Shown one piece after another: positions 4,601 to 27,197 of a stretch of DNA of 64,000 nucleotides. The notes below the pieces were generated by a model. That model saw only the letters and a program-made list of their open reading frames with translations, made no database searches and was not told the origin of the DNA. The position numbers were made by a program, and so were the translations under genes. Each line of letters begins with the position of its first letter. Position 1 is the stretch's first letter. The stretch covers positions 62,001-126,000 of the forward strand of contig JAGUYK010000014.1 in NCBI GenBank assembly GCA_020061355.1, given 5' to 3'. This stretch comes from Ignavibacteriales bacterium. GTDB lineage: Bacteria; Bacteroidota; Ignavibacteria; Ignavibacteriales; Melioribacteraceae.

Positions 4601-5206
4601 TAAGGTTGTAATTGCATGCTTATATGCAGCATTGTAGAAATCAACATTACCTGTTTCCTTAGATGCCCAGAAGAGAAGTTCCAGATTCATCATCGTATCA
4701 ATTATAACCCACCCTTCTCTATCCTTACTGTTCAATTTTCCCCATGCTCTAACATAATTGCCGTTCGGATTAAATCTTTTCAGAAGCATCTCTGCTGCTT
4801 TAATTGCGGCATCGCGGTATTTTGAATCACCAGTTTCTTTGTATGCCCTAACACATGTAGGGTAAAATATGAAACCCATATCATGAGTATTATCAATCTC
4901 GGCAAATTGAATCAGCCAATCCGCATGTTTAAGTGCTAAATCTTTTATTGAATCATCACCGGTTAATTCATAAAGATTCCAGAGTTCGCCTCCTAAAAAT
5001 CCTGATAGCCAGTTTACGTTTTCACTAAAACTCCATTTCCCGTTAATTGTATAAACCGGAAATTTCCCTTCACAAATTTTCTGTTTATTAATCAACTGTT
5101 CTTTAATCAGGGAAAGTATTTCATGCTGTGCAGTGCCTGGATTCGATAATCCGAAAAATATAAGAGCCGCAAAAAAGGTATTTCTTATTGAAATGTTATT
5201 TCTCAT
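1655..5206 (-). CDS. GH88-GH2 fusion: unsaturated glucuronyl hydrolase joined to a beta-glycosidase
   Basis: An 1183-residue secreted protein (signal peptide about 1-26) holding two complete enzymes in one frame. Residues about 30-395 look like GH88: HDMGFIFY near 108, IIDTMMNLELLFWAS with Asp170, and HQGFGDETTWARGQAW with Asp236 where the family has its catalytic Asp. From about 405 to 1183 follow a GH2 jelly-roll (NLPHTWN, FEGVNIESEIFVNG), the Ig-like domain, the TIM barrel with acid/base Glu787 in SLGNE and likely nucleophile Glu872 in HAEYGG, and C-terminal beta domains. GH88 removes 4,5-unsaturated uronyl ends left by lyases; GH2 would then cut the exposed beta-linked sugar. The start lies 11 bases inside the upstream stop, so it is co-translated with the lyase genes. 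The GH2 specificity (galactosidase, glucuronidase or other) cannot be read from sequence. Confidence 0.85.
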   Translation of the reverse strand: MRNNISIRNTFFAALIFFGLSNPGTAQHEILSLIKEQLINKQKICEGKFPVYTINGKWSFSENVNWLSGFLGGELWNLYELTGDDSIKDLALKHADWLIQFAEIDNTHDMGFIFYPTCVRAYKETGDSKYRDAAIKAAEMLLKRFNPNGNYVRAWGKLNSKDREGWVIIDTMMNLELLFWASKETGNVDFYNAAYKHAITTLNQHVRPDFSTYHVVEFDPSNGKVIKKRTHQGFGDETTWARGQAWAIYGFAIAFKYTGDERFINASEKMADYFLNHLPEDLVPYWDLNLEGENVIRDASAAAIAATGFLLISELTNMRDDYEKYHEYAFKISNSLIDNYLFTKSRRSSEEGILLHTVYNYAKDWGRDESFPCGDFYFMESLRKVIAEKNNEKFINDNGKRQSFIINKNWFYLEDDIKQIDHIYQSAKEWKKINLPHTWNSFDAVDQEPGYRRAASWYMKKLFIPELDDHTTLKINFEGVNIESEIFVNGKKAGGHTGGYLQFDVDITPFIKENAVNEILVKADNSYNPNIPPSQTSDFVIYGGITRDVHLKILPSVYIDNLFISTPKVSERSAETKLKISLNNQSGNKNIILKIHLNDGDNKTLITAEKKYQLANGNYQFDISLPDLKKPHLWSTEDPYLYTMNLSVIVDRKVVDTYSEKIGYRWFEFKENGPFYLNGKRVLLRGTHRHEDYAGLGNALPDSLHRKDIRMIKEMGANFVRLAHYPQDPEVYRACDELGLLVWDEIPWCRGGMGKDIWKRNVKSFLNEMIDQNYNHPSIIIWSLGNEVYWLPEFPDGDNNDSLRTFLKELNDIAHQKDPSRYTAVRKYYEGSDIVDLFSPSIWSGWYSGVYKGYEKAIVDAQKKYKRFFHAEYGGDSHVGKHSEQPVTGDGFANPDEWEEKVNQVKISNIANMGDWSESYMVDLFDWYLRFSEQSESFSGSAQWAFKDFPTPLRPENPIPYMNQKGLVDRNGNPKDAYYVFKSYWNTKDKFCYIESPTWTERSGPKDVKRDVNVFSNCSEVELFLNEVSQGKLKKDITKFPASGLSWNVNFNSGKNILEAVGYNDAGKTTEHLIEVNYKFEKGGSADKIILSYHKMKNGNYLITAVAVDQNGNRALDYNKRIYFSSLSSGKFIQNMGTPTGSSVLEMANGKAQIELKPVPSEDAVIEARNQDFKGSYLKIPGD

Positions 5207-6386
5207 TCTTCACCCACAGTATCGGCTGTCTGATTGGATAAGTTCTTATTAACTCTTCGTCGGAATAGTTAGTATTAAGATTTTCCCATATCTCAATGTA
5301 TTTTTTCTCTCCGTATGCCAAACCGGCAAAAAGAAGACTCTGCATTCTTACAGGGAGTTCGTCAAAGTGCATTACATCTTTTCTGTATTGCCAGGAAGAC
5401 TTGTCTGATATAAAGGGAAACATGAATTCAAAACCGAGTTTAATATTTTTATTAAGGGGAGAAGTAAAATTCCAGATAGTATCGTCCTCCAATATCTGAG
5501 CAATGGTTCCAATTGCTTCGATATTGAAGAGAGAATAATTGTAGGGCTTTGTTCTTGAAAGCTCTTCAGGAAAACTTCCGTTTTGCGCCATCTGTTTTTC
5601 AAGTATCTCCGACTTGAAAAAGGTTTTGCAGAAATCAATCTGCTTTGGGTTGTTGACGAGACGTGAATACATCGCAACCTGGGCAACCCACCATGTGCTG
5701 TGATTGTTTCCATTTTCCCTTTCATCTATTCCATACTGGTGAGTTGTCACCCAATTAAGAAAATCCGCAAACCACTTTTTTATTAGTATAAGATTTTCTT
5801 TATCAACGACATTGAGTTCTTCAAGGACTTCAACAGAACGTGCAACTTCAATTAGATGGATTGCATCAATTAAACCGATTCCTCTTCCGGTAACAATTCC
5901 TTTAATTGCCTGAGCAAATAAAAAGTGAGGATTCATTTTTGTTTCTTCATCAACAAACCAGGCATAAATATGTTTTAATGCATGACTGGAATATTTCTCT
6001 TGACCGGTTATTTTGAATGCTGCAGTCAAAGCTGCTGTATAAATAGAAAACCGAATCAGGAATTTAAGGTGTGCATCAAAATTTTCCGGATTATTAATAC
6101 CATCTCTTCTTATATAAGGCCCATCAGGATTAACGGGATCAGGCCACCAGTAAGTACCTTCTGAATAATAATCGTGAATTCCACCGGCACTTCGCTCAGA
6201 TTTAGCTGCCGTTACTGTAATTGGTTCCTCCGATAAATACTTATCAGCAGACAAAAGAACTCTTTCTTTTTCCAATGAAAGTAATTTATCATAGGTAAAA
6301 GTGGAATCGACAACCTGTCCCTGCAAGGAAGATATATAGGTTACTACTATTATTAGAATAAAAATATTATGTCTGGAAATAATCAC
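5196..6386 (-). CDS. Second secreted lyase of the alginate_lyase (PF05426), PL38-like family
   Basis: A 396-residue paralogue of the protein at 408-1655. It has a hydrophobic signal segment at 5-22, then GTYWWPDP near 78-85, PYIRRDGINNP, and the catalytic-type NNHSTWW at about 227-233 with a later Tyr in NYSLFN. It starts with GTG in a GTGA overlap with the stop of the beta-helix gene and itself overlaps the GH88-GH2 start by 11 bases, so it sits in the middle of a tightly coupled operon. No T9SS tag is present, so a periplasmic location is likely. The two paralogues differ in the segments between motifs, which could mean endo versus exo action or different uronate linkages. That is an inference. 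Confidence 0.8.
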   Translation of the reverse strand: MIISRHNIFILIIVVTYISSLQGQVVDSTFTYDKLLSLEKERVLLSADKYLSEEPITVTAAKSERSAGGIHDYYSEGTYWWPDPVNPDGPYIRRDGINNPENFDAHLKFLIRFSIYTAALTAAFKITGQEKYSSHALKHIYAWFVDEETKMNPHFLFAQAIKGIVTGRGIGLIDAIHLIEVARSVEVLEELNVVDKENLILIKKWFADFLNWVTTHQYGIDERENGNNHSTWWVAQVAMYSRLVNNPKQIDFCKTFFKSEILEKQMAQNGSFPEELSRTKPYNYSLFNIEAIGTIAQILEDDTIWNFTSPLNKNIKLGFEFMFPFISDKSSWQYRKDVMHFDELPVRMQSLLFAGLAYGEKKYIEIWENLNTNYSDEELIRTYPIRQPILWVKNEK

Positions 6387-8269
6387 TTTATAATTACCAT
6401 TTTTTTAGTAGAAGTATAATTACCGCTTCGAAGTGAATAAAAATAGACACCGCTCGGCAATTTCGAATCTGAAATAGTGAATTGTGAGTTATAAAAACCT
6501 GCTTCTTTGTACTCATCGATTAGTGTTGATATTTCATTTCCGAGAATGTCAAATATCTTCAATGTAACAAAGCCGGATTCCGGTATTCTAAAACTTATAT
6601 TGGTGGAAGGATTAAATGGATTAGGATAATTATCAAACAGTTGAAAAGAAGATTCAATTACTTCTGGTTCATCAGTCCTAATAGAGGTAATCAGCCGTTC
6701 TTCCAGTTGGGCAATGTAAAGCGAGACTGGATTTAATCCGCTAATATTAGTTCCTTCAATATAACCCTGAGGCTGATCGAACGGGGCTCCTAAAGATTTC
6801 AATCCGGTTATCCTTCCGGCAAAATTTCCAATTGAATAATTCTGAGCAGTCGGCGGCTTTTGAATAATTATGCTTTTTCCACCACCGATTTTACAATTCC
6901 ATATAACAGAATTTACTGCAGCCCAACCGTGGCTCGTTCCATAATCTCCGCGATTGTACAACGCAAGTACATAACCGGTATTCGGATTGTTAAATGAAAT
7001 ATTATCATACAGCATTCCCTGACTCCACCAGCGGTGTCCTTCGCTGGAGCTATAAGTATAATCACTAACATTATTATAAAACACAATTCCCGATACAGTA
7101 CTTGTTCCGTTTGACACATAATCGTGTCTGCCGTATTTCGTGTAGGAATTTTTAACAAGAATCTGCTGGGATGCGTGGTACATATTAAAATTATACCTTC
7201 TCTCACCATCTATCTTGCTTATCGGGTCGATTGCCTTACAGCTATCAATCGTTACACGAGAAGCCGTACTTGTCATTATGCCCGATTGACCGAAGTGACG
7301 CATCGTGCAATTTTTCACCCAGGAATCTTCAATCTGCTTTAATTCGATAGCATGCCAGGCATGATTTTCATCTCCGTTTGAATCCTGCGGTATACCGATA
7401 GCCTCAATATCAATTCTTAAATTTTCAATTCCGATATTAGTCTTTAAATTATTACGCGAGTATTTATAGATATATGATTGCGAAAGGCTTTTATCCAGGG
7501 TATAGAATAGAGGAACATCAACGGTTATAGTATTGCCGGAAATGTTTTTTATATAACGGTTGTAGATAATGTTTAATCCATCCTGAACAACCCATGAGGG
7601 ATCGGAAGCGGTGCCGCCGCCCTGAACTGAATTGATCCATGCATCAGTAATTGGATGATAGACAATTATATTATCGCCGGTATTAAATAATGAGGCATTT
7701 TCTACTGAAAAACTTTTTTCACCTGTAAATATTTTCGATGAAGTAATATTTGTTTTAGTACCCGGAACCTGTTCAGACCATCTTGTTAAACTGCCTCCAC
7801 CTGCAATTAATATTGTTCTCTGGTGAGGTGTGTTTCCTTTTCCAAAAATAATAGTATTCCCGGATGGATCCTCCCCATCTCCTTCGCCTCTAAGTACAAT
7901 CCCGCTTTGGTTGAGTCTTATTGTTCCGTTCACCTGATATGTTCCGGCTTTCAATAATATCGCTCCTCTGAATCCATTGCCGTCCGGGTTGAATCCTGCC
8001 ACTTCATTTATAGCGCTTTGAATATGTGATGTATTATCACCCTGAATAGCTTCAATTATTTTCACAACCGGGATTTCAGGAATATCAACTCCACCGCCTT
8101 TGTATCCGGCTCCGCTGAAATCCGGGATTCTGTTTCCATCAGAATCGGAGATATAGGTAAGCTTGCCGTCATTTCCATAAAAGACAATATTCGATTGCCA
8201 GGATTGAGCAGAAATCAATTCTGAAAATAAAACTGATGCTATGAAAAAATATCTTTTAAAATAGTCCAA
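6383..8269 (-). CDS. T9SS-secreted right-handed beta-helix protein, candidate polysaccharide lyase
   Basis: A 628-residue protein. The signal peptide (about 1-22) follows an apparent TTG start; no upstream ATG fits. Residues about 75-500 have pectate-lyase-superfamily beta-helix features: an N-terminal block with AIQSAI-like spacing (HIQSAINEV), LLKAGTYQVNGTIRL, GIVLRGEGDG, and many short Asn-rich strands. The C-terminus (about 545-628) is a T9SS sorting domain starting NYPNPFNPST and ending KKMVIIK, so the protein is probably exported to the cell surface. I cannot identify catalytic residues or a PL family. Its place between PL6 and alginate_lyase-family genes suggests action on the same uronic-acid polymer. 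It ends in a GTGA overlap with the next gene. Confidence 0.75.
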   Translation of the reverse strand: MDYFKRYFFIASVLFSELISAQSWQSNIVFYGNDGKLTYISDSDGNRIPDFSGAGYKGGGVDIPEIPVVKIIEAIQGDNTSHIQSAINEVAGFNPDGNGFRGAILLKAGTYQVNGTIRLNQSGIVLRGEGDGEDPSGNTIIFGKGNTPHQRTILIAGGGSLTRWSEQVPGTKTNITSSKIFTGEKSFSVENASLFNTGDNIIVYHPITDAWINSVQGGGTASDPSWVVQDGLNIIYNRYIKNISGNTITVDVPLFYTLDKSLSQSYIYKYSRNNLKTNIGIENLRIDIEAIGIPQDSNGDENHAWHAIELKQIEDSWVKNCTMRHFGQSGIMTSTASRVTIDSCKAIDPISKIDGERRYNFNMYHASQQILVKNSYTKYGRHDYVSNGTSTVSGIVFYNNVSDYTYSSSEGHRWWSQGMLYDNISFNNPNTGYVLALYNRGDYGTSHGWAAVNSVIWNCKIGGGKSIIIQKPPTAQNYSIGNFAGRITGLKSLGAPFDQPQGYIEGTNISGLNPVSLYIAQLEERLITSIRTDEPEVIESSFQLFDNYPNPFNPSTNISFRIPESGFVTLKIFDILGNEISTLIDEYKEAGFYNSQFTISDSKLPSGVYFYSLRSGNYTSTKKMVIIK

Positions 8270-8304
8270 AGATTTTTTGATTTATGAAATTAAAAACCTT
8301 GTAT

Positions 8305-10056
8305 TTATTTAAGCACAATCATTTTTTTTGTCTGCGAATAATTGCCTGTATTTATCTTATAAAAAAAAACTCCGCTTGTTAGTTTGAAGTCGTCGGTTGA
8401 TAACCGGATGGAATAAGCACCGGGTACTTTATATTCATCAACAAGCAGTGCAATTTCTTTACCGAGCACGTCGTAAATTCTCAATTGAACCTGTCCCGCT
8501 TTGAAAATGCTGAAATTAATCGTTGTTTCCGGATTGAAAGGATTCGGGTAATTTTGTTCTAACGCAAATCTATCCGGCACAGGATCTCCATCCGGTTTAA
8601 CAGATGAGAGAAGTCGAATGAATTCAGGCCCGGTATTATGCGGTCCAACAGGCCTTACCTTAATATCTTCAGTGGAATATTCATCAGCGCCAATATCATT
8701 TGCGTCTATTCTATTCTGACCATCAAAATCTTTTGTAACATATTTATAATTTGTATTGGAAGAATTTATTGCAGGACTGGTTGGTAAAAGTCTATAAATG
8801 TTATCTGCCGATTTAGAAAGCAAGGGATTAATATTTAAATTATCATTCGGAAGACTCATGCCAATCGATGTTCCATAAAAAATATTGCCCGCCCATGTCA
8901 TGTTGACAGGATTATCAGTTAAAGTCACAATCGGTGATTGTGTTGAATAAAAAATATTGTTCGCAATTATACAATCGAGTGGCGGGAGTGTAAGTTCAGA
9001 ATCCTTTCCGGCACCAATAACCAGTGAGGCCCGGCTGTTTACGACTGTATTAAATGCAACGATAGCTCTTTTTACCTGGAAGTACCGGTTCAATGGAGAA
9101 TCAGGTACTCCATTCATCAAAGTAATTCCGGATTTCAAACTTGTACCAGATGAGTTTTCGATATAATTATTAAATACTTTATGATCTTCGCCGATAATCC
9201 TGATTCCCCCGGAATTCGGTTTGTTGCCGCAGAAGAAAAAATTATTTTCAACAGTGCAGCGGTTTCCATGTCTTAGCGTTAATGTTCCTTCGCAATCCTT
9301 AAACGTATTAAATCTGTAAATATTCTCGCACGATTTGTTCGAAATGATTTCAGTTTCGCCGTTGCATTGTTCAAAATAATTATACTCTACAGTTGTGTAA
9401 GAATCCTGTAATGATGTACTGCTGTCGCCTATACGAATTGTTTCAGCTCCGTTTTCAGGGTAGGCCGGTCTGAATGCAAAATAATTATTATCGATAAGGT
9501 GATAATTTGGAGTTGATCCGAGCCATACGACGAGTGTTGTTCCTATATGGTCCTTTCCTTTCAGGTAGCAATGATCAACCCGGTTGTTTGTTCCATATAG
9601 TGAAATCCATTTATAATCCTTCTTTTTATCAGCCGGATTGTAATTCACTATTGCAGTATTTGTTAACCGGCAATAATTGCTCAGCAAACTTGAACCGTTT
9701 CTGAACTCAATAACCGCACCGGAAGGACTATAGCCGTCCTTAAAATAGAGCCCGCTTACCTCGAGATAATTTCCGGCGATACGCAAAGTAGAGGTTCCGG
9801 TCAGAATAACCTCGCCGTCTTTTTCGGCTATAAGATAAATCTTATTGGACAATGTTCCATTTGCCTGAAAAACAATCTGCTGATTATTCCAGATTCCTTT
9901 AGTCATAACAAGAGTATCTCCCGGCTGAATAGTTGAAAGCGCTGAGGAGATCTGCTGTGCTGATGACACAAAGATTTTTTTTGCCTCTAAATCTGAAAAA
10001 GCTAGGATGATGAGTATAATCAGGTATAAAAATTTCATAGAGTTTTTTAATGTCAT
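8305..10056 (-). CDS. PL6 lyase (alginate lyase / chondroitinase B family) with T9SS tag
   Basis: A 583-residue secreted beta-helix enzyme. Family signatures are clear: NGAETIRIG at about 202-210, then NGETEIISNKSC with Lys241, then TLTLRHGNR with Arg262, then GGIRIIGEDH. The Lys-Arg spacing of 21 equals that of the catalytic Lys250/Arg271 of chondroitinase B. The family eliminates at alginate M-M/M-G or dermatan sulfate linkages; the Ca-binding Asn/Glu cluster is in the NGETE segment. The C-terminus (about 500-583) carries NYPNPFNPET and ends in KKMIVLK, a T9SS signal. The first ATG at 10056 has no clear ribosome site, and the second Met at residue 7 (MKFLYLI) is an equally good signal-peptide start. 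The gene sits in the uronan operon after a G8-like secreted protein. Confidence 0.88.
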   Translation of the reverse strand: MTLKNSMKFLYLIILIILAFSDLEAKKIFVSSAQQISSALSTIQPGDTLVMTKGIWNNQQIVFQANGTLSNKIYLIAEKDGEVILTGTSTLRIAGNYLEVSGLYFKDGYSPSGAVIEFRNGSSLLSNYCRLTNTAIVNYNPADKKKDYKWISLYGTNNRVDHCYLKGKDHIGTTLVVWLGSTPNYHLIDNNYFAFRPAYPENGAETIRIGDSSTSLQDSYTTVEYNYFEQCNGETEIISNKSCENIYRFNTFKDCEGTLTLRHGNRCTVENNFFFCGNKPNSGGIRIIGEDHKVFNNYIENSSGTSLKSGITLMNGVPDSPLNRYFQVKRAIVAFNTVVNSRASLVIGAGKDSELTLPPLDCIIANNIFYSTQSPIVTLTDNPVNMTWAGNIFYGTSIGMSLPNDNLNINPLLSKSADNIYRLLPTSPAINSSNTNYKYVTKDFDGQNRIDANDIGADEYSTEDIKVRPVGPHNTGPEFIRLLSSVKPDGDPVPDRFALEQNYPNPFNPETTINFSIFKAGQVQLRIYDVLGKEIALLVDEYKVPGAYSIRLSTDDFKLTSGVFFYKINTGNYSQTKKMIVLK

Positions 10057-10073
10057 AGCCGAGGATTAAATGC

Positions 10074-10097
10074 GGGCCGGATATTAAAACCCGGCCC
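10074..10097 (-). terminator. GC-rich hairpin between the G8-like and PL6 genes (attenuator or processing site)
   Basis: GGGCCGG (10074-10080) and CCGGCCC (10091-10097) form a perfect 7-bp stem with a 10-base AT loop just after the stop at 10109. No T-run follows on the minus strand, so it is more likely an intra-operon mRNA-stabilising or attenuating hairpin than a full terminator. Confidence 0.5.
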
Positions 10098-10108
10098 TGA
10101 TTAAAATG

Positions 10109-11677
10109 TTATTTTACTAAAAGCATCTTTCTTGTCTGGGAGAATCCGTTCGATTTAATCTGATAGAAATAGATTCCGCTCGAATAATTCGCAGCATCGA
10201 AAGAGACTTTGTATGAACCGGTATTCATATATCCGTTTACAAGAGTTTCAATCTTTTGTCCGAGTGAGTTAAATACTTCAAGAATTACATTCCCGGAAAA
10301 GGGAATCGAAAAGTTAATATTTGTCGTTGGGTTAAAAGGATTCGGATAATTCTGCGACAGATTATAGGAAGTAGGAATTCCTTCTTCTTTTTCAACATCC
10401 GTACCGCCCGTTAAAGTATTTTCAGATGTTCCTGAAACACGCGCAAGTGCAACATAAATTGTTCCTCCTTCAGCTAATGGAATTGCGGGATTTATTACAT
10501 CACCGCCAACTGTGCTAGGATCAGTACCAAGTGCGGTTACAAAAGGAGTTGTTTGTGTAACTGCTTTCCATGTAGCTCTGTTATCAGTTGAGTATGCCAC
10601 TCGTAGATTAATATTACCGGCAGCTACTCCATCATCGGATGCATAACTTAATGCCAGAGAATCGATAGTTATTGCCGCAGTTGCAGTAGATACTCCGCTT
10701 CTTGTATAGGTTATAGCGTAATATCTAACCCCGGATACTTTGTCAATCCCACCCTGGAAAATGCTACTGTTAAATGCATTACCTGTAATACACTTAACTA
10801 CAAGTAAGTGTCCCGTTGCATTTCCCGGAGCCGGAGAACCGACAACAACCGTTCTGATTCCGCCATTGTCGCCAACATCAAATGTCCTTCTTGTGCTGCC
10901 GCCTCCATTCGAAAGGCCTCTACCCAGCCAGCCTTTCACATAACTGTCTTTGGATGCACCGGTCAAATTTGTTCCGCTTGTAGAGAGATAACCCCATATA
11001 GATGTACCTTCAGTTTCAATGATCCCTTTTGTAAATGTCATTAATGTGCCGCCGACAGAGGAATTGTTTGACATATAAAGATTGCCGCTCTTCAAAACAA
11101 CTTTTCCGGTGCCGGTTTTATTAACAACAATACTGTTAAATTCCTCGCCATAATTTGTACCCGATGTACTTGATTTATAAGTTGAATTTTGAAGCCGAAT
11201 ATTTGAATCATTGGAACCGGCAAAAGTTAAAAGAACTCCGTTAGCAGTGCCTGCTGAGTTTGAACCTCCGCGGAAATCTATTGTCCCGGTAGCTTCAACT
11301 GTAATATCTCCTTTAATTGTCATAAGATGCTCGACCCAGGAATTTGCAGCCCCTGCAGGAGTTCTAGTACCACACCTGAATACTCCCAGAGGATTTACTT
11401 TAACATTACCTTCAACACTAAGACCACTTACAGTTCCATCGAGCTGGAATTCAAGTCTTCCATCGATGGTTAAGTTTTTACAAGCTGCGGTTGTAGTATT
11501 AATAACAATATTATGACCTGTTGTAATTACAACATCATTCGCTGCACCCGGTACAACTCCGCCGGTCCATGTTGCTGTGTCATTCCAATTTCCGCTTGCT
11601 GCAGAGGTTATCTGCGAATAGGATGTTGCGGAGAAACTTACCAAAAGAGCAATAACAAGTATTAATGATTTTTTCAT
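10109..11677 (-). CDS. T9SS-secreted protein with G8-like beta domain
   Basis: A 522-residue protein with a clean signal peptide (about 1-21) and a GAGGTAAGT-ATG start. The N-terminal part begins ASGNWNDTATWTGG followed by VPGAANDVVI, the opening of G8-like and parallel-beta repeat domains found in secreted adhesins and polysaccharide-binding proteins. The middle (about 60-430) is rich in Gly, Thr, Asn and Ser with no catalytic motif that I recognise. Residues about 440-522 form the T9SS sorting domain (NYPNPFNPTT to TRKMLLVK). Its place between the barrels and PL6 suggests surface binding of the substrate. That is inference; no enzymatic role is visible. Confidence 0.7.
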   Translation of the reverse strand: MKKSLILVIALLVSFSATSYSQITSAASGNWNDTATWTGGVVPGAANDVVITTGHNIVINTTTAACKNLTIDGRLEFQLDGTVSGLSVEGNVKVNPLGVFRCGTRTPAGAANSWVEHLMTIKGDITVEATGTIDFRGGSNSAGTANGVLLTFAGSNDSNIRLQNSTYKSSTSGTNYGEEFNSIVVNKTGTGKVVLKSGNLYMSNNSSVGGTLMTFTKGIIETEGTSIWGYLSTSGTNLTGASKDSYVKGWLGRGLSNGGGSTRRTFDVGDNGGIRTVVVGSPAPGNATGHLLVVKCITGNAFNSSIFQGGIDKVSGVRYYAITYTRSGVSTATAAITIDSLALSYASDDGVAAGNINLRVAYSTDNRATWKAVTQTTPFVTALGTDPSTVGGDVINPAIPLAEGGTIYVALARVSGTSENTLTGGTDVEKEEGIPTSYNLSQNYPNPFNPTTNINFSIPFSGNVILEVFNSLGQKIETLVNGYMNTGSYKVSFDAANYSSGIYFYQIKSNGFSQTRKMLLVK

Positions 11678-11734: not shown

Positions 11735-13255
11735 TTATTTAATTAAGTACGTATAACCGATCATCAGGTTACCTGATTTTTCAAATGCATAGTTTGTATT
11801 GCTGAAATAGGAATCATAATATCTTAAAACTCTTAGCTCGTAAGCTAAATCAATCCTGCCGAAAAATAGATTCAGACTGACTCCCATGTTATAACTGTTT
11901 GCTTCCGGTCCTCTATCTGTAACTGCTGCGCCATCGGGAATATATACCTGGGGAATGCTTTGATACCCGGCGAGAATAGAGATGAAATCCAATGCTTTAT
12001 ACTCGATTCCAAACCTGATAATATTCCTATCGACCCATTTTCTAAAAGTAGGATCATTAGATTGCAGATTGTACTTTGCTTTAGAGTAGGGTGCATACTC
12101 ATAATCGAATGCAATTATAAATTTGTCGGCTGGATTAAAACTTATTCCGAATGAGAATAGAGCCGGGATTTCAAAATTATCTTCACCGCTTACATTTAAT
12201 GATGTGGTTGAAGTATCCGTTACTACCTGAGTGTAATTCCATTCCCTTTTTATTGTATATGGTAAAGTTGCTTTAGCACCAATGGTGAAACGGTTGAATT
12301 CATAAATGAAGCCAAGGTTAAAACTGGTCGAGGAATATTTGGATGCTCCGTTTTCTACAAATGACCCGTCCAAATATGAGAACATAAACCTCTGCTGATT
12401 GCTTAAAAGGAAATCACCAACTCTGGTAATTGATAAGCGGTCGTCACTTTCTCCCCACATTAAATTAAATCCAGCACCAACCATAAATTTGGGAAGCACT
12501 TCAACAGCAATTCCGCCGGTTATATTATTTAATTTTCCGATTCTTTCTCTAAGGTATCTGGACCATTTCATATTTAATGTTTTCTGACCATCAACACGTG
12601 AGATATCTCCGCCATAATCAAAATATCCAATATGGGGATCCAGGTAAGTATCATTACGGTCAAAATCATAGAAGCTGTTATCAACATTGTAAGAAAGAGC
12701 TGCAACAAAATTCATATCACCAAGCTGGAACGGAAAAGCACCTGCAAGATTTGTCAATCCGATATTATCTTTCTGTTCAGTCCAATCAGCAGCTTCTTCA
12801 CTATATGAATCTACGCCAAGTTTAGGTTCCTTAACTATATAATTATAATTGGTATCCTGTGCAAGCTGATAATCCCATTTACCGTTGTTGGCCGGATCCG
12901 GTATATAAAGTCCTTCAAGATAGAAAGGGAGAGTCACAAAATATCTGTCCGGTCTGTAATTCTGATTTTCTCTCCAATGCTTGCTGTAGCTGTTTGCAGC
13001 GGCGGAAACCTGAATCTGTTTTATGCGGGATAACCCGGCCGGATTAAAAAACAATGATGACAGATCACCGGATAATGCGGTAAAAGCCCCGCCCATTGCA
13101 GAGGATTTAACACTTAAGTTACTGTTATTCATTAATCCCTGGAACGAATGATTATCCCCTCTATGCTGTGCCGGTAAATTTGCATTAAGCAGAACAAAAA
13201 TTATTATCAGCATGCTGCTGATAAAAAACTTTTTATAAAAATTAGGCATTTCCAT
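11735..13255 (-). CDS. Outer-membrane beta-barrel, FadL/OmpP1-like
   Basis: A 506-residue protein with a signal anchor (about 8-30) and a GAGGAG ribosome site before the first ATG. Near the mature N-terminus it has SSAMGGAFTALSGD followed by FFNPAGL, the NPA signature shared by FadL/TodX and PorV-like barrels. The rest alternates aromatic-rich amphipathic strands, and the chain ends with a strand (MIGYTYLIK). A transport or T9SS-shuttle role is possible. It follows a shorter PorV-like barrel by 24 bases in the same operon, so this locus encodes two non-TonB barrels. The family assignment rests on motif and topology only. Confidence 0.65.
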   Translation of the reverse strand: MEMPNFYKKFFISSMLIIIFVLLNANLPAQHRGDNHSFQGLMNNSNLSVKSSAMGGAFTALSGDLSSLFFNPAGLSRIKQIQVSAAANSYSKHWRENQNYRPDRYFVTLPFYLEGLYIPDPANNGKWDYQLAQDTNYNYIVKEPKLGVDSYSEEAADWTEQKDNIGLTNLAGAFPFQLGDMNFVAALSYNVDNSFYDFDRNDTYLDPHIGYFDYGGDISRVDGQKTLNMKWSRYLRERIGKLNNITGGIAVEVLPKFMVGAGFNLMWGESDDRLSITRVGDFLLSNQQRFMFSYLDGSFVENGASKYSSTSFNLGFIYEFNRFTIGAKATLPYTIKREWNYTQVVTDTSTTSLNVSGEDNFEIPALFSFGISFNPADKFIIAFDYEYAPYSKAKYNLQSNDPTFRKWVDRNIIRFGIEYKALDFISILAGYQSIPQVYIPDGAAVTDRGPEANSYNMGVSLNLFFGRIDLAYELRVLRYYDSYFSNTNYAFEKSGNLMIGYTYLIK

Positions 13256-13279: not shown

Positions 13280-14257
13280 TTAGTTTATTTCATAACCGAT
13301 TGTAAAGCGGTGAACCGAATTCAAATACTGTCCATAATCATTATACGAGTAGTCAATCCTGTATCCTTTATAAAGGACTCCAATTCCCGCCGCGATTCCT
13401 TCCTGATCATTATTCAAAACATATCCGCCTCGTAAATAGATCATATCTTTAAAACCATATTCAAGACCTATGCTATGCATCTGATCATAATCTCTCGGCT
13501 GAATCATATCATAGGATAAAAGAAGTGAATGATCACCCGTATTAGAGATCAAAGGATCGTTGTTAGAAAAGAGATAGGATGAAATACCAATATTAAAAGT
13601 CTGGGGAAGAGGATAACTTTTATCTATGAATTTAACTTCCTGTCCAAAGTGTCTTACCGAAGCACCTATAATTATTGAACGGAATCCGGTATTGAAAGTG
13701 AGTCCTCCGTCAAAAACGAGAGCTCCGGCTTTTTCAAAAACCAAATTTTCGTGAACATATTTTACTGTAACTCCAAAAGCGAATTTGTCCGTAAGATTTC
13801 TTGCATATGAAACTCCAAGAACCAGAGAGCTTGGATTAATCACTTCGCCCGTTAATCCCGGATTATAAACTCCGTTAACAAATCCGAGCCGGTCAACCCG
13901 CGTAACCTCTATCTCCCCGACACTTGAAATGATTCCCATGATTCCCAGAGTGCCTACATCTTCGAAATTATAAGCAGCCGAGAAAGAGTAATGATTTACA
14001 TCCATAAACCAATCAACAAAACCGAATGAAAAATCAAAACCATTAATACGAGCTAATCCGGCAGGATTCCAGAAGACCGCTTCAGAGTTATTTACAATTG
14101 AAGAGAAGGCACCCGCCATACCGGTTGCTCTTGCACCTGGCCATACTTTTAAAAACTGAAATGACGTAGTACCAACTTTTTCGAATGCAAAAGAAGCAGC
14201 GCTTGAAAGCGAAATAATTAATAGAGCCAATAAAATTTTGTTTCTAATGATCTTCAT
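13280..14257 (-). CDS. PorV/PorQ-family outer-membrane barrel (UPF0164-like)
   Basis: A 325-residue protein with a signal peptide (about 1-24). It opens GTTSFQFLKVWPGARATGMAGAFSS followed by FWNPAGLARI; this FL.-GARA-GMGGA..A-NPAG pattern is the PorV/PorQ hallmark. The known PorV is an outer-membrane component that receives T9SS cargo and passes it to the sortase PorU. It is encoded directly downstream of a T9SS-type secreted protein and a TonB receptor, an arrangement repeated at 34606-42044, so it may be a locus-dedicated cargo shuttle. It starts with GAGGTATCATA-ATG, 23 bases after the preceding stop. It could instead be a transport barrel for oligosaccharide. Confidence 0.7.
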   Translation of the reverse strand: MKIIRNKILLALLIISLSSAASFAFEKVGTTSFQFLKVWPGARATGMAGAFSSIVNNSEAVFWNPAGLARINGFDFSFGFVDWFMDVNHYSFSAAYNFEDVGTLGIMGIISSVGEIEVTRVDRLGFVNGVYNPGLTGEVINPSSLVLGVSYARNLTDKFAFGVTVKYVHENLVFEKAGALVFDGGLTFNTGFRSIIIGASVRHFGQEVKFIDKSYPLPQTFNIGISSYLFSNNDPLISNTGDHSLLLSYDMIQPRDYDQMHSIGLEYGFKDMIYLRGGYVLNNDQEGIAAGIGVLYKGYRIDYSYNDYGQYLNSVHRFTIGYEIN

Positions 14258-14280
14258 TATGATACCTCATAACTATATCT

Positions 14281-16518
14281 TTATTTAATTACTATGAATT
14301 TTCCGTTTGTTTGTTCTCCATTAGGAGTGGTTACAACATAGAAATAAACACCCGATGCAATCTCCTGTCCGTTCCTAGTCATCTGAAACCATTCTGTAGA
14401 ATAGAGCGGTGTATCATGTTCTATTGTTTCAATTAATTGACCGGAATAGGAGAAAACTCTGATTGTACATTTCTCCGGTAAACCGTAAAAACCGATTTTA
14501 TCTGTAACGTCTCCTGTTCCCTGGAATCCTGATTTCTGAATAAATGGATTTGGAACAACATATACTTTTCCTAAAGTTTCAACAGAACCGATATTCTTAA
14601 CAAACTTAGTGATATTTGTTTTTCCGCTTTCGTTCCCGTTTATATCTACAGATGTAACAGCATAATACCGCGATTCACCAATCTTAAAATCCAGATCCGA
14701 ATCAACAAATTGATAAATGTTCTGACTAGTGACATTGCCCAGGTTAACCTCACCAATCATTTTCCATGGTCCCATGCCGGCTTTGGCTCTATAGACCTTA
14801 AATTTTGTAAGTTGTCCGGTCAATCTTGGATGAGAAAAATTTTCAACTGCGCGTCCCCATTCAATTTCCACATTACCAATTGCAGTGTTAGCAACTTTTA
14901 TTGCCGGAGAGGGGACAGGAACCGGAATTTTATAAATTCCTTTATCTGGGTTCTTTTCCGGCCACTGAGGAATCTCGGGTTCCTTTCCTAGATATGCGGT
15001 AAATGCTTTATGTGCAACCTGGGTTACATTCCTTACATTCGAGTTAACATAATCGGGATAGCCATAATCATCAAGGTAATGTTCGGTCATAACTTCATTG
15101 CCGATAACAATTTTTTTATTCCATGAAGGAGTTTCATTCCATTGTTTGGTAGTATTGCCGCCTTCAATTCGTTTTCCGGGTTCAGCTCCGTATCCGCAGA
15201 CTTCAGCAAGTGCAAATTTTAATTTATCACCTTTTCTAAGTGTATAAGGACCGGTAACAAAATTTTTCTGTCCGGCATCTGCACTTTGTCTATAAGGATA
15301 AGCACCCCTTCCATACCATTCAGGATCGTTACGTGGTACTTCCGGCCATGTTGTACTGTTAGCAGCATAGACGCCGCTATATCTATTATCCGGATTGAAG
15401 AACTGGTTCATCATTTTAACAGAGTTTGTATTGCCTGTGCTTACTTTGTTTGACCAAGGTTGTTTAAATCTGCTTTGAGAATCTATTTCATAATACTCGC
15501 CGTTAAGTGTTCGTAATATTGAAACTGCTTCTGTTTCATTTCTTGCAGGATCTAAAGGATCAACAATTGCAAGATGATTAAGATCATAAAAGAGCATTGC
15601 ATAACCGGGAGCCTGGGGACTTGCTATTCCACCGCCGTTCTCACCGGTGCTGGCAAATTGGCGAAAGAGTGTTTTGTTGGGTTCAGGTTTTCCAGCAAGA
15701 TCGGTAATCAGGTTTGTTTGAATATCCATATTAAAGCTTAGCCAGTAATCTGCATCCCAAAAACCTCTTTGATCTCCGCGGTAAATTCCGCCGTCGTATT
15801 TCCAGACTTGGTAATGTCGTTGATAGCCGTACATTGAAGGACCGAAGCCATAATTGAAGCAGATCATAACATCCTTCAATGTAGAGGTCTGTTCTATTGT
15901 TGCAGGATTACCATCTGTATCGCCGGTATATTCAAATTCATATTCATAGATTATCATATCATCATAATCGGGATAGCTCCATGCCCGTGAAATTCTTTTT
16001 ACTGTAATACCAACTGAAGTAGCCCACGAAGCTGTAATAACCTCTTCCGCTTCATCAGTTTTATAATTTGGATTTAATGTGCCGTCTTCGAGCACCGGAA
16101 AATTTTCTTCCCTATCTATATTTAAAGGGAAGACCCACCTGCCAAATGTAACCTCGGGTTCTGATGCACCAATGCCTCCGCAGAAAGCAAAAATTCGTTT
16201 GTCCTTTCCGGGTAAGCCGTCAAGGTTTGCTGCAATGTAAACACCGGCGCCAATTAAATTGTGCTGACCGCTATATTCAATCCCATCAACGACGGTTGCA
16301 GATCTTGATGGCCATTCAAAAAGAGGAACGCTGGTTTTATTTCCGGCTTCACCGGTCATCCAGGCCCTACCTATTTCTCCTGTATTAAATACAGTTTCAT
16401 GCAGCATACCGCGGTTGTGAATTCTATATTCTCTTATTTGTGCATTCACAAACCCGACATATATAAGACAGATTAGAAGTGAATTAAAAAATATTTTATT
16501 GACCTTTTTGAGATTCAT
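14281..16518 (-). CDS. Large secreted protein of the TonB-receptor module, VVPNP-type C-terminal signal
   Basis: I place the start at 16518 (745 residues), not at the ATG 24 bases upstream, because AAGGAG lies just before it and the signal peptide begins there (MNLKKVNKIFFN). The N-terminal half opens with FNTGEIGR and PLFEWPSRS, and matches the 1222-residue protein at 35664-39332, which has FNHAQAGR and PFEWP in the same order. An Fn3-like stretch lies around 535-640. The C-terminus has VVPNPFIQ, then LPEKCTIRVFSYSGQL, IEHDTPL and GKFIVIK, again shared with the paralogue. This differs from the usual NYPNPFNP tag but is likely a T9SS sorting domain. It sits 33 bases after the TonB receptor, where SusD would normally be. 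I recognise no enzyme domain; a surface glycan-binding partner of the receptor is an inference. Confidence 0.7.
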   Translation of the reverse strand: MNLKKVNKIFFNSLLICLIYVGFVNAQIREYRIHNRGMLHETVFNTGEIGRAWMTGEAGNKTSVPLFEWPSRSATVVDGIEYSGQHNLIGAGVYIAANLDGLPGKDKRIFAFCGGIGASEPEVTFGRWVFPLNIDREENFPVLEDGTLNPNYKTDEAEEVITASWATSVGITVKRISRAWSYPDYDDMIIYEYEFEYTGDTDGNPATIEQTSTLKDVMICFNYGFGPSMYGYQRHYQVWKYDGGIYRGDQRGFWDADYWLSFNMDIQTNLITDLAGKPEPNKTLFRQFASTGENGGGIASPQAPGYAMLFYDLNHLAIVDPLDPARNETEAVSILRTLNGEYYEIDSQSRFKQPWSNKVSTGNTNSVKMMNQFFNPDNRYSGVYAANSTTWPEVPRNDPEWYGRGAYPYRQSADAGQKNFVTGPYTLRKGDKLKFALAEVCGYGAEPGKRIEGGNTTKQWNETPSWNKKIVIGNEVMTEHYLDDYGYPDYVNSNVRNVTQVAHKAFTAYLGKEPEIPQWPEKNPDKGIYKIPVPVPSPAIKVANTAIGNVEIEWGRAVENFSHPRLTGQLTKFKVYRAKAGMGPWKMIGEVNLGNVTSQNIYQFVDSDLDFKIGESRYYAVTSVDINGNESGKTNITKFVKNIGSVETLGKVYVVPNPFIQKSGFQGTGDVTDKIGFYGLPEKCTIRVFSYSGQLIETIEHDTPLYSTEWFQMTRNGQEIASGVYFYVVTTPNGEQTNGKFIVIK

Positions 16519-16551
16519 AAAACTTCTCCTTTGAACGATCACTTTTACTTA

Positions 16552-19428
16552 TTAAAAATTTAGAATTATCCCAAGTCGGAAATAACGTGGCTGATTGCTA
16601 AGTAAATAAATTTCCTGACTTGTAACAAAAGGCGCAAATTCATCATAGGTTAATACATTGTCTTTATTCAGCTCCCACTTCGGAGTATTTCTTCCATGAT
16701 TAAACGTCCTGGAATAATTATATACCATTGTATTCAAAAGATTAAAACCTTCTCCATATATTGTAAAATTGGTTCTTCCTATTCTAATAGTTTTTTCAAT
16801 TCTCATACGTAAATCTGTTTCGGTAGGTGTTCTTTTGTTGTACTTCAAACCCTGTCCTGTTACATCCCAAGTATATGGTCTTCCTGTATACACTTTTAGA
16901 GTTAAACTAACACTAAGGTTTTCGAGAGGATATACATTTCCAATACTAAAACCTTCCTTGCCGGATGTCCTGTATCTTATATTAAGAATAGCTTTATGTG
17001 TTCTGTCATAATCGAGATAAACATCCTCCGGATCCGGTAGTTCAACAGGGTCCTGACCTTCAGCAGGTTTTTCGAAATATGATACCGGTGCATTCAGATC
17101 ATTACTACTCTTTCCCTTAGCGGCTTCGTAATTATATCTTATATAACCTCTTAACTGCCCTTCGGCCTTTTCCAGGCTTATATGAAAACCTTTAATATCT
17201 GCATAATCCCTGTTCCTATAGGTTTGATAAACCGATTGCTGTTCGTCGTAATAAAAAGCTGTTTCAACAAGATTAGTTACATCTTTATAATATGCGCTTA
17301 CGTCAAGCTTTAATCCGTACGGGAATGCATTAACAAGTCCCACATCATAAGCTTTGGTATTCTCGGGTTTAAGACGTGGATTACCAAGAATCTGAATTTC
17401 ATTAAAACTTGTCACCTGGTTATAAAATATCTGATTGAAAGTAGGTCTTTGAGTAAAGGTTCCATAATTCAGATGGAATACGGAGGTTTCCGAAACGGGG
17501 AATGATATTCCGATCCTTGGCTGTACTCTATTATATATTTTTGTTTTTTCTTTTGCAGCAAGGTCGGGATCATAATATAATCCCCTTTCGAGATAAGGTT
17601 TGGAAGGATCATAATATGGATTTCGAAGAGGTGAATACTCGTCAGCATAGTATTCAGCATTCATATTATAGAAATCATACCTTATTCCTATGTTTGCAAT
17701 AAATCCTTCGAATTCCAGTTTGTCCTGAATATAGACTGCACCTTCATATGGAAAAGCACGGAACTTAACTTTCCGGTAACTTCCTGCATCTACAATATTC
17801 ATATCCCTGTTAACATCTAGAGTGTAATAGGCAAATTGCAATCCGGCTTTTAATAAATTGTTTTTGTTGAATTGAGTAAGAACATTTCCCTGGAAATCAT
17901 ATGTAGTGACTTTCTGATCTCCGCGGTCATCATTTGGTCTTCCGACATAATAGTTAGCCGGACCCTGGTAATTTACCCAGTTGGTTTTATTAGTATATTG
18001 CTCGAGAAATTCACCCTCCCTGAGCAGTTCAATTCTTTCTTCATTTTTTACATTAAGAAGTCCAAGCTTAATCTCCATAATTGTCGATTGATCGAATGTA
18101 TGGTTCCAGTCAAATCCATACTGGGTTGTAACCTGCGAAGTTTGTGTTATTCCAAAAGTTCTGTCAAAAATCCATCTTAGCCAGTTGCTTGAAAGAACAT
18201 TTCTTGCATCCGAATCAAGAATAAAACGGAATTTAAATTTGTCATATTTACTGGCTTCGTAAGTAATGTTACTCATTATTTGCCTAGACTCATCAGGATT
18301 TGAGGTAGGCACCAAAGGATGGTTAATGTTCTGTCTTGCTGCTAAAAATAATTTCAGATCTTTTGCAATTGGTCCGCCTGTAGTAAAATCCAACCGATAG
18401 TCAAAAGTATTATTGTATTCAAGTCCGACATCTCTAATTGATGTAAGCCATGCAATCTGTCCAAGTCTTGCTATATAAAGAGAATCTTTTAATGTTGTCC
18501 GGGTAGGGAGAAGATATACACTGCCGAAAGAATATCCGAGATCGAAAAGCGGTCTGCCCGGTTGTGTTGGATTTTCAATTAACCAGGCATTAGTTTCTTT
18601 GAGTAGATTATAGAAATCCAAATTACTTGGTGAATAAACGCTGCCTGCAAAGGTTTTATAATATGGAGGTGTAGTTGACGCTTCTACTCTTGTTTCCCAT
18701 GTTTCCCCACCCTCTTTTGCAACCATATTTACAACGCCCGACTGTGCGTTCCCATACTCGGCACTGAATCCGCTCGTATAAACCTCAACCTGTTGCAGAC
18801 CTGTAACTATAGGGGAGAATGCCCTGTTATTGTTAAGAGGATTTACAATCGAACCGCCGCCGATCAGATACATCGATTCACCTACCCTACCTCCACGGAA
18901 GTGATCGTCAATTACATCAGCTTGAAGTTCAAGAATATCTGTAAGTGAAGCAACCCCTGCAATATTCTGAACATCAGCAATATTATAAACCTGCTTCGTT
19001 GCTGTAATATCGGCCTCAACTCTTTTAGGACTGAAGGCAGTTACAACAACTTCTTCGCTCTCAAATGATTTCTCGAGAAGTGAAAAATCAACATTTGTTG
19101 TTTTATCAACGCTCACCTGGGCATTTACAACTTTTTCTTCATTGTAACCGATGTAAGAAGCTTTAACACTATAAACACCCGGCGGAACATTGAGGATATA
19201 ATACCATCCTTCAAAATCAGTAGCAGAGCCAAGCATTTCTGAAAAAGGTTTTTCAACGCCGTTCTCCCATTTGCCGCTAATAATAATATTAGCTCCAATA
19301 AGCGGTTCGCCGGTGTTTTTGTCAATCACTTTACCAGCAATTTTCCCCGTCTCACCAGCGAACAAAGTGTTGATGTTTAAAAATAACAGGGCAATTATAA
19401 CGCCGAAAGTTTTAGAAGTTTTTCTCAT
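16552..19428 (-). CDS. TonB-dependent receptor with carboxypeptidase-regulatory-like N-terminus
   Basis: A 958-residue outer-membrane protein. After a signal peptide (about 1-25) comes a CarboxypepD_reg-like domain (about 28-112: GKIAGKVIDKNTGEPLIGANI, DFEGWYYILNVPPG), then a plug (about 125-240: QVYNIADVQNIAGVASLTDIL, YGNAQSGVVNMVAKEGG) and a 22-strand-type barrel to the terminal Phe. The family imports oligosaccharides or other large ligands across the outer membrane using TonB energy. It lacks SusD downstream. The next gene is the large secreted VVPNP protein. It leads the operon, with a promoter candidate about 35 bases upstream of its AGGAG site, and the GntR/FCD regulator lies just upstream on the same strand. 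The likely ligand is uronic-acid oligosaccharide, inferred from the enzyme genes. Confidence 0.85.
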   Translation of the reverse strand: MRKTSKTFGVIIALLFLNINTLFAGETGKIAGKVIDKNTGEPLIGANIIISGKWENGVEKPFSEMLGSATDFEGWYYILNVPPGVYSVKASYIGYNEEKVVNAQVSVDKTTNVDFSLLEKSFESEEVVVTAFSPKRVEADITATKQVYNIADVQNIAGVASLTDILELQADVIDDHFRGGRVGESMYLIGGGSIVNPLNNNRAFSPIVTGLQQVEVYTSGFSAEYGNAQSGVVNMVAKEGGETWETRVEASTTPPYYKTFAGSVYSPSNLDFYNLLKETNAWLIENPTQPGRPLFDLGYSFGSVYLLPTRTTLKDSLYIARLGQIAWLTSIRDVGLEYNNTFDYRLDFTTGGPIAKDLKLFLAARQNINHPLVPTSNPDESRQIMSNITYEASKYDKFKFRFILDSDARNVLSSNWLRWIFDRTFGITQTSQVTTQYGFDWNHTFDQSTIMEIKLGLLNVKNEERIELLREGEFLEQYTNKTNWVNYQGPANYYVGRPNDDRGDQKVTTYDFQGNVLTQFNKNNLLKAGLQFAYYTLDVNRDMNIVDAGSYRKVKFRAFPYEGAVYIQDKLEFEGFIANIGIRYDFYNMNAEYYADEYSPLRNPYYDPSKPYLERGLYYDPDLAAKEKTKIYNRVQPRIGISFPVSETSVFHLNYGTFTQRPTFNQIFYNQVTSFNEIQILGNPRLKPENTKAYDVGLVNAFPYGLKLDVSAYYKDVTNLVETAFYYDEQQSVYQTYRNRDYADIKGFHISLEKAEGQLRGYIRYNYEAAKGKSSNDLNAPVSYFEKPAEGQDPVELPDPEDVYLDYDRTHKAILNIRYRTSGKEGFSIGNVYPLENLSVSLTLKVYTGRPYTWDVTGQGLKYNKRTPTETDLRMRIEKTIRIGRTNFTIYGEGFNLLNTMVYNYSRTFNHGRNTPKWELNKDNVLTYDEFAPFVTSQEIYLLSNQPRYFRLGIILNF

Positions 19429-19670: not shown

Positions 19671-20408
19671 TTAACGGTTGACTTCCCCGTTTATTATACC
19701 CTCAACCTTCAGCATTGCTTTAGCATGTTCTAACGCAATGGCAAGGTGCTGTCTCATTTCTTCGTAAGCTGTAACAGGGTCATTTACTATAATGGCATCT
19801 AAAATTTTCGAATGCCATATTATCGCAGAGTTTCTTGCTTCAGGAACATCAGAAATAATCATTGATTTTATCTCTGGCATCAGTCTGAAAACCGGTTTCA
19901 GCATAAGCGGAAGAAGACGATTTTGTGTTGCATTGGCAATTGCCAGATGAAAATTCATATCAAACCGGGCTAGTTCTTCGGCAGGTCCTTCAAAAGTCTG
20001 CATCGAGTTAATTTCTTTACGCATTTGTTCAATATCAATGTTGGTTCTGTTCAATGCAGCTGAACGGGCAATCTCGGGTTCAATAATTCGGCGTGCTTCG
20101 ATAATTTCGAGAACATATGATGCACCCATTCTAGTCTTTAGATAGCTGTGCATAGGACCAGTTACACTATCGGAAGAAATCTTTTTAACGAATATTCCCC
20201 GACCCTTTTCAATAGAGATCAATCCTTTAGCGCTTAGCATCTGTAATGCTTCACGCAAGGCTGTTCTACTTACCCCAAATTGCTCACAAAGTTCAAACTC
20301 GGTTGGCAGTTTATCATTTACTTTTATTCTTTGGGAATTGATTGCAGATTCGATTTCCTGAGCGACTTTTTTACTTAGAGATTCTTTATTACCCACAGGT
20401 GTGAACAT
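19671..20408 (-). CDS. GntR-family transcriptional regulator, FadR subfamily (FCD domain)
   Basis: The N-terminal winged helix (about 8-75) contains KLPTEFELCEQFGVSRTALREAL and GRGIFV. The C-terminal FCD domain keeps the four metal ligands: Asp and His in DMNFH, His in WHSKI and His in RQHL. I place the start at 20408 (245 residues, MFTPVGNKES) rather than at upstream Mets, since a promoter and operator overlap those codons and TTTAGG precedes this ATG. FadR-type regulators of uronate pathways (UxuR/ExuR type) bind hexuronates or KDG-like acids. Here it is encoded just upstream of the uronan operon on the same strand, so it probably senses a breakdown product and controls the operon. The ligand is inferred. 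Confidence 0.85.
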   Translation of the reverse strand: MFTPVGNKESLSKKVAQEIESAINSQRIKVNDKLPTEFELCEQFGVSRTALREALQMLSAKGLISIEKGRGIFVKKISSDSVTGPMHSYLKTRMGASYVLEIIEARRIIEPEIARSAALNRTNIDIEQMRKEINSMQTFEGPAEELARFDMNFHLAIANATQNRLLPLMLKPVFRLMPEIKSMIISDVPEARNSAIIWHSKILDAIIVNDPVTAYEEMRQHLAIALEHAKAMLKVEGIINGEVNR

Positions 20409-20427
20409 TGATAACCTAAAGTTGTTA

Positions 20428-20440
20428 TATGTCATACATA
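20428..20440. promoter_or_regulatory. Candidate GntR/FCD autoregulatory operator
   Basis: TATGT-CAT-ACATA is a perfect 5-bp inverted repeat with a 3-base centre. Its core TGTnnnACA fits the nGTnnnACn operator of FadR-subfamily regulators. It abuts the -10 and lies about 20 bases before the chosen start, a typical autorepression position. Confidence 0.5.
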
Positions 20441-20469
20441 ATATAAGTTTCATCGGATACTTTTGTCAA
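20440..20469 (-). promoter_or_regulatory. Promoter of the GntR regulator gene
   Basis: A perfect TTGACA (20469-20464) and TATATT (20445-20440) with an 18-base spacer on the minus strand. The predicted start point falls inside the palindrome at 20428-20440, giving a leader of about 25 bases to the ATG at 20408. Confidence 0.5.
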
Positions 20470-27195: not shown

Positions 27196-27197
27196 AA

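Follow-up and report, generated by a model that had tools for sequence, protein, structure and literature searches.

A co-inherited triad of TonB-dependent receptor, secreted protein and PorV-family barrel as a possible, so far uncharacterised counterpart of the SusC-SusD uptake pair

The 64,000 nucleotides analysed here (hereafter the window) come from an Ignavibacteriales bacterium of the Melioribacteraceae (assembly GCA_020061355.1, contig JAGUYK010000014.1, positions 62,001 to 126,000), and on the minus strand the same three genes follow one another twice: a TonB-dependent receptor (T), a middle secreted protein (V) and a barrel of the PorV/PorQ family (P). In the first copy (w1), the receptor (16552..19428) has 958 residues, an N-terminal CarboxypepD_reg domain (PF13715, PF13620) and 77.5 bits on PF00593; the middle protein (14281..16542), of 753 residues from a GTG start or 745 from an in-frame ATG, ends at about residues 654-753 in a PorZ-like C-terminal domain (CTD; E 3.3e-8 against the CTD region of the NCBIfam PorZ model); and the barrel (13280..14257), of 325 residues, reaches 190.4 bits on NF033709 (PorV_fam, cut-off 90). 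The second copy (w2) consists of a receptor of 897 residues (39363..42056; PF00593 109.9 bits, PF07715 42.5 bits), a middle protein of 1222 residues (35664..39332) and a barrel of 340 residues (34606..35628; 194.7 bits on NF033709). Its middle protein has the same type of CTD, matching the PorZ model only in the CTD region (E 0.0012) and our CTD profile, of which it is itself a part, at 149.6 bits. The two receptors align with each other (38% over 258 positions and 28% over 502 positions), as do the two barrels (29% over 351 positions), whereas the direct BLAST alignment of the middle proteins is confined to the C-terminal ~125 residues (34%). The initial annotation of this DNA, which described a repeated order with clear homologues in all three slots, was thus right about the order, the receptors and the barrels and overstated the middle slot. 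The middle protein of a third triad of the same genome (L009) bridges the two, with 25% identity over 347 positions to w1 and 27% over 95 to w2, and 135 triad ectodomains taken without their CTDs form one BLAST cluster (E 1e-5, at least 50% coverage); the wider kinship of the ectodomains is transitive and not direct between w1 and w2.

The triad recurs well outside the window. The source genome holds six (w1, w2, L009, L010, L011 and L012, the last four reached through PorV_fam and CTD matches), and 78 of 296 genomes searched across the phylum matched at E 1e-12 when the middle protein of w1 was the query, with about three candidates scored per genome. Profiles were built from these six triads, and proteins were assigned to class V or to the type A class of the type IX secretion system (T9SS), which served as a control, by the higher CTD score. 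V genes were picked by CTD similarity to the six triads and not by their neighbours; some regions of the source genome were picked by PorV_fam matches. Gene order was read in 95 regions (set 1: the window, 14 others of the source genome and 80 of the matched places elsewhere) and in 79 loci from named genomes, where 158 relatives were confirmed and the best 80 used (set 2); the sets share 12 identical proteins, with 142 distinct in all, and the counts are uncorrected for relatedness. Under strict calling of open reading frames (ORFs), the exact order T-V-P surrounds 67 of 79 V genes in set 1 and 68 of 75 in set 2, four loci of the latter (L159, L178, L191, L192) having no V gene by this calling, and the corresponding order around type A genes was found in 0/133 and 0/136 cases. 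Since genes in GC-rich contigs are lost when only the longest ORFs are called, the flanks were re-read frame by frame, and a receptor upstream together with a PorV-family barrel downstream was then found for 77/79 and 73/75 V proteins. Of the four exceptions, three lie at the end of a contig (L097, L129, L198) and one lacks the barrel (L150). The frame-level control gave 1/133 and 1/136 (2/269 in total), both within T-A-V-P runs. Median intergenic gaps across 135 triads are 10-19 bases. Six triads in one genome, together with recurrence in relatives against a matched control, indicate that the arrangement is not due to chance, and we regard the unit and its order as real with near certainty. 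Almost every member of the family has a receptor as its neighbour, whereas a family found mostly without receptor neighbours would have counted against the initial annotation. At the level of the class, CTD profile A3 matches 117 of 119 genomes at E 1e-8, where genomes with 1-4 matches may hold only PorZ- or PorU-like CTDs. One locus (L093:6990-10580) has two V-type proteins in tandem between a single receptor and a single barrel.

The genes of the triad are also inherited together. Among 65 complete triads, distance matrices correlate at 0.89 for receptor and ectodomain, 0.89 for receptor and barrel, 0.84 for ectodomain and barrel, 0.82 for ectodomain and CTD, 0.81 for receptor and CTD and 0.75 for CTD and barrel, the permutation maxima being 0.09-0.15, which demonstrates co-inheritance. 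The genes for the receptor, the protein with a VVPNP-type CTD and the PorV-family barrel form a unit that hardly varies and is inherited as a whole, frequently with carbohydrate enzymes next to it.

It is informative to consider the receptor against the other TonB-dependent receptors of the source genome, of which 24 were seen (19 by PF00593 and five met in neighbouring regions examined). Six stand in triads, one (L228) is a SusC with a SusD-like protein, and three are followed by a DUF4249 or near-DUF4249 protein. The six triad receptors align with one another as paralogues, and all six fall below the cut-off of the SusC model TIGR04056 (368.25 bits), with 0-83 bits; that of w1 is not listed at E<=0.1 and that of w2 reaches 80 bits. 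None of the six carries the TIGR04057 signature, and four further triad receptors, three from genome G188 and one from L091, score 0-87 bits on TIGR04056. As positive controls, the SusCs of L228, L257 and L253 pass with 391.2, 401.7 and 731.9 bits, each with TIGR04057, and an NCBIfam scan of all 24 receptors gave L228 as the sole pass, its gene being followed by that of the SusD-like protein of 401 residues. Against the PDB, the receptor found only PhuR (5.6e-5). The description of the receptor as SusC-type hence fails as a statement of family membership, and the organism, as the L228 pair shows, does not lack SusC-SusD; with one receptor of 24 being a SusC with a SusD-like neighbour, two partner types coexist in this genome. 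Of the three pairs of receptor and DUF4249 lipoprotein, one lies in the window (27198-30409); two of the three partners pass PF14054 and the third, at 27.7 bits, lies just under the cut-off of 28.5. The pair in the window lies beside a glycoside hydrolase family 53 (GH53) protein (25732-30409 together); in G188 a GH53 gene instead adjoins a triad (L255). Three receptors (L218:7205-9997, L220:5007-7847 and L222:6360-9176) exceed the cut-off of TIGR01782, the Xanthomonas-Caulobacter type, and those of L218 and L220 adjoin type A T9SS proteins, with no PorV-family gene there.

Canonical glycan uptake in the Bacteroidota uses SusC together with the lipoprotein SusD. The SusD family PF07980 was found in 155 of the 296 phylum genomes; within the order it was found in 3 of 17 genomes of the organism's own family and in 0 of 11 genomes from the remaining families. 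A profile built from 19 SusDs of those genomes matched no middle protein, and it matched 0 of 901 ORFs in set 2 and 1 of 1096 in set 1; this one (L091:14064-15656; PF07980 98.2 bits) follows the apparent C-terminal end of another receptor and adjoins a triad while standing outside it. The profile recovers the known L228 pair, where the only PF07980 match of the source genome, a sub-threshold one, also lies. By a simple pattern, a lipobox-like motif occurs in 5 of 135 middle proteins versus 15 of 19 SusDs, against a background of 12/126 receptors and 6/135 barrels. With the lipobox absent in 130 of 135 and with PorZ as the nearest solved relative of its CTD, the middle protein is, judged by these sequence features, not a SusD. 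On this point the initial annotation was borne out: the place of the partner is taken by a secreted protein of T9SS type, and the triads hold no SusD. They do coexist with SusC-SusD.

All six triad barrels of the source genome pass PorV_fam (171.8-218.7 bits), and none exceeds 94.3 bits on the equivalog models for PorV (NF033710, cut-off >250), PorQ (NF033711, >220) or PorV2 (NF052325, >325); the w1 barrel has 68.7, 83 and 66.6 bits on these, respectively. Its only PDB match at E<=0.1 is PorV (6h3i_F, 9.5e-5), and on the PorP/SprF model TIGR03519 (cut-off 90.55) it scores 17.5 bits, the other triad barrels not being listed. The attachment components looked for in the source genome (PorU, PorV, PorQ and PorZ) are encoded outside the triads, PorU (963.2 bits), PorV (268.3 bits) and PorZ (411.7 bits) on C13 and PorQ (260.9 bits) on C47. 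The third gene of the triads, labelled PorV-like in the initial annotation, is not the general PorV. The genome gave 18 PorV_fam match rows at E<=0.001, weak and split ones included. As each triad brings its own PorV-family paralogue together with a PorZ-like CTD, a dedicated anchoring is suggested, an element absent from the initial annotation. In a tree of 74 barrel rows, the w1-type triad barrels group in a single clade with good support (23 rows, 100/99). As proof of an origin separate from PorV and PorQ the tree was rejected; these two lie on long, weakly supported branches among the triad barrels. In 46 of 75 set 2 contexts, the barrel gene of the triad has another P gene behind it. Directly after the w1 triad lies a second barrel, of the FadL family (11735..13255, minus strand; Toluene_X 49.1 bits, cut-off 29.7), which reaches 61 bits on the BamG model, under the cut-off of 250.

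A Pfam scan of the six middle proteins of the source genome found no ectodomain family, with weak tail matches only in w1 and L012, and the full-length alignment found only PorZ in the PDB, at E 1, which is not significant alone. The CTD is more informative. At E 1 its profile matches 17 PDB sequences; the full-length matches are PorZ (5m11, 1.9e-6) and, weakly, PorU (6za2, 0.042), FlgD appears at 0.6, and no gingipain or translocon-bound cargo CTD is among the matches. The type A profile of the same genome, of the NPFNP type, finds the cargo CTDs 8glj_D (5.4e-6) and 8glk_D, the ice-binding protein 5uyt, 9x1i, FlgD, PorU (0.41) and the gingipain CTDs 5hfs and 7pq4, and no PorZ at E<=1. The two profiles represent related families (hhalign 97%), yet their PDB relatives differ. 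The organism's own PorZ CTD scores 33.6 bits on the V profile and 17.2 on A, and the M6-like protein 29.6 on V and 51.9 on A. The best NCBIfam model is PorZ for five of the six middle proteins (w1, w2, L009, L011, L012), L010 matching only PorU (0.0005); on the full-length PorZ model NF052228 (cut-off 260) the scores stay at or below 39.9 bits and cover the CTD region only. On the type A model TIGR04183, w2, L009, L010 and L011 are not listed, and on the type B model TIGR04131 (cut-off 35) w1 has 13 bits and w2 is not listed at E<=0.1. By these comparisons the CTD appears closer to that of PorZ than to type A. A 524-residue CTD protein at L019:5978-9472 (39.8 bits on V, 41.2 on A) is followed by two PorV-family genes, with no receptor, and may be another kind of CTD-barrel pair.

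Taken together, we propose, with a probability of about 0.5, that the middle protein is the receptor's ligand-binding partner, exported by the T9SS and held by the barrel through an uncleaved CTD, which would make the triad a T9SS analogue of SusC-SusD or BtuB-BtuG. Owing to its C-terminal CTD, the middle protein would be passed across the outer membrane by the translocon of the T9SS, and its export by this route is very likely. The PorZ-like CTD would then stay uncut, not be passed to lipopolysaccharide (LPS) and remain bound to the co-encoded PorV/PorQ-type barrel, replacing the lipid anchor of SusD; by analogy, this retention is probable, PorZ being held by PorQ and PorU by PorV with their CTDs retained (PMC5562754, PMC10202324, in the sections cited) and type B proteins by PorP/SprF (PMC9143113). 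The ectodomain would sit over or beside the receptor as a lid that captures substrate and delivers it for TonB-driven import, a role to which we give slightly better than even odds. The order, the recurrence and the CTD kinship are observed; retention, the complex and the lid function are inferred.

Several observations weigh against this proposal. The top-ranked PDB rows of the V profile are WD40-like repeat proteins, each matched by many pieces of 3-4 bits, and were discounted. PorU does not discriminate between the classes: that of the organism scores 41.9 bits on V and 46.0 on A, and in the PDB it is found by either profile. The type A model TIGR04183 (cut-off 23) is narrowly passed by w1 (24.7 bits) and L012 (25.5 bits). 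Covariation, considered as proof of contact between CTD and barrel, had to be rejected, this pair having the lowest of the six correlations (partial r given the receptor 0.10). Finally, with SusC-SusD in the same genome, the triad is no simple replacement of that system.

The barrel might instead be a dedicated shuttle that picks up its cargo at the translocon and delivers it to PorU for ordinary CTD cleavage, the partner ending up anchored to LPS. Shuttling is the known role of PorV (PMC5562754, as described there in part), PorU, PorV, PorQ and PorZ are all encoded in the genome, and the two narrow TIGR04183 passes among six would fit; we nonetheless consider this unlikely, if still a serious contender, as 269 type A proteins of the same loci lack such an adjacent barrel and the CTD is PorZ-like. 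Unlikely as well, and a little more so, is that the middle protein acts as a surface enzyme, adhesin or glycan-handling factor without being a receptor partner, anchored by the barrel as PorZ is by PorQ: an ectodomain without a Pfam match leaves room for such a function and kinship to PorZ could mean handling of surface glycans, but the receptor-ectodomain correlation of 0.89 and the fact that V-type proteins without a receptor occur only at contig ends argue otherwise.

PorV, FadL and BamG are members of a single superfamily of barrels, and weak Toluene_X matches on triad barrels (25.0 and 18.4 bits, under the cut-off of 29.7) could suggest a FadL-like channel for a hydrophobic substrate next to an ordinary receptor and a secreted binding protein. 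This is highly improbable given that PorV_fam is passed by all six barrels, that a separate FadL-like protein already follows w1 and that the barrel is strictly linked to one CTD type. A literal SusC-SusD pair was ruled out by the receptor and partner models, and a diverged one, to which partial TIGR04056 matches in the N-terminal region of five of the six triad receptors (58-83 bits) might point, has next to no probability in our estimate: the SusC model failed in all six, the single SusD-profile match lies beside its own receptor fragment, and the lipobox is missing.

Compared with known systems, the proposed partner held by a barrel through its CTD resembles PorZ-PorQ and PorU-PorV of the Porphyromonas gingivalis attachment complex, as far as the cited sections describe it, in which a T9SS-exported protein sits on a PorV/PorQ-family barrel with its CTD retained; the triad differs in that the model matches place no PorZ propellers in the middle protein (CTD region only), in its neighbouring TonB-dependent receptor and in barrels that fall under both the PorV and PorQ equivalog cut-offs. 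The type B pairs SprB-SprF and PG1035-PorP likewise combine a secreted CTD protein with its own barrel gene, the PorP/SprF-like barrel holding the protein as proposed surface anchor, whereas the triad CTD is not type B, its barrel belongs to the PorV family and not to PorP, and the known pairs, in the parts of PMC9143113 cited, are described without a receptor. With SusC-SusD and RagAB the triad shares a TonB-dependent receptor and an adjacent extracellular partner, often in carbohydrate loci, but its receptor is not SusC, its partner is neither SusD nor a lipoprotein, and it has an extra barrel gene. BtuB-BtuG, in the cited part of PMC10404256, provides a non-SusC receptor with a non-SusD surface lid (a pedal-bin complex), although BtuG is a lipoprotein, with neither T9SS nor a barrel anchor. 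The receptor-DUF4249 pair of the window is another receptor-partner pair of the same genome, unlike the triad in its short, lipoprotein-like partner and in having no PorV-family gene. No description of the triad was found by title or abstract start in the open-licence literature searched.

A broader proposition, to which we give somewhat less than even odds, is that the triad represents a widespread third type of TonB-receptor partner in several lineages of the Fibrobacterota-Chlorobiota-Bacteroidota (FCB) group, a T9SS-exported ligand-binding subunit whose uncleaved PorZ-like CTD is plugged into a private PorV/PorQ-type barrel, forming a two-barrel, one-lid complex. The T9SS is known for enzymes, adhesins and virulence factors. 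If the proposition is true, the system would also assemble nutrient-uptake complexes, a CTD class (for which we use the label type V) would be defined by its retention on a barrel encoded with it, and the large number of PorV-family barrels in these bacteria would be explained, many being anchors for receptor partners. SusD-less receptor loci, often missed by finders of polysaccharide utilization loci that depend on SusC and SusD, would become predictable from the signature of receptor, VVPNP-CTD protein and PorV-family barrel in metagenome-assembled genomes of Ignavibacteria, Rhodothermales, Calditrichota, KSB1 and Marinimicrobia.

The triad could be tested in a cultured isolate, Melioribacter roseus, which appears to hold both systems. 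Genome G188, apparently of this species, has a true SusC-SusD pair (SusC 731.9 bits; SusD 124 bits on PF07980) and at least three triads: L057, orthologous to w1, L100 with GH43 and GH28 nearby, and L255 with GH53 nearby; on TIGR04056 their receptors reach 0, 67 and 87 bits. The two systems thus appear to coexist in one described isolate. The G188 pair matches the sus operon of M. roseus in the cited part of PMC3534657, and the idea that this published SusC-SusD-SusE operon is a disguised triad was ruled out, a true SusC and SusD being present there.

Downstream of w1 (408..11677, minus strand), Pfam assigns carbohydrate genes: two alginate lyases, a GH88/GH2 protein, a protein with a Por tail, a lyase of the chondroitinase-B family and a G8-domain protein. 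Upstream lies a GntR-FCD regulator (19671..20453, minus strand; PF00392, PF07729), and L057, the triad orthologous to w1, has such a gene in front of it too. In 69 proteins encoded downstream of related triads, the domains counted were Por tails (45), DUF5123 (23), beta-helix (17), chondroitinase B (11), alginate lyase (5) and heparinase II/III (5). A uronate-rich polysaccharide or its oligosaccharides is, from this neighbourhood, the likely ligand of w1. For w2 an alpha-glucan is a guess; downstream of it lies a protein with starch-binding-type carbohydrate-binding modules and a type A T9SS tail (32657..34546, minus strand; AMPK1_CBM, X25_BaPul_like, CBM_20, Por_Secre_tail), and in L256 a related triad is likewise followed by a CBM_20/48 protein that bears this tail. 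The GH88/GH2 protein (1655-5206), lying between the two alginate lyases, joins both domains in 1183 residues. Ahead of the w2 receptor lies a peptidyl-prolyl isomerase of the PpiC type that contains two rotamase domains (42084-43874); in the Pfam neighbour scan, which took in 89 of 157 triad-neighbour candidates and covered 25 of 139 families, Rotamase_2 occurs in nine. TIG domains occur in six of the same 89, and a TIG-domain protein of 408 residues (L009:9426-10652) follows the L009 triad.

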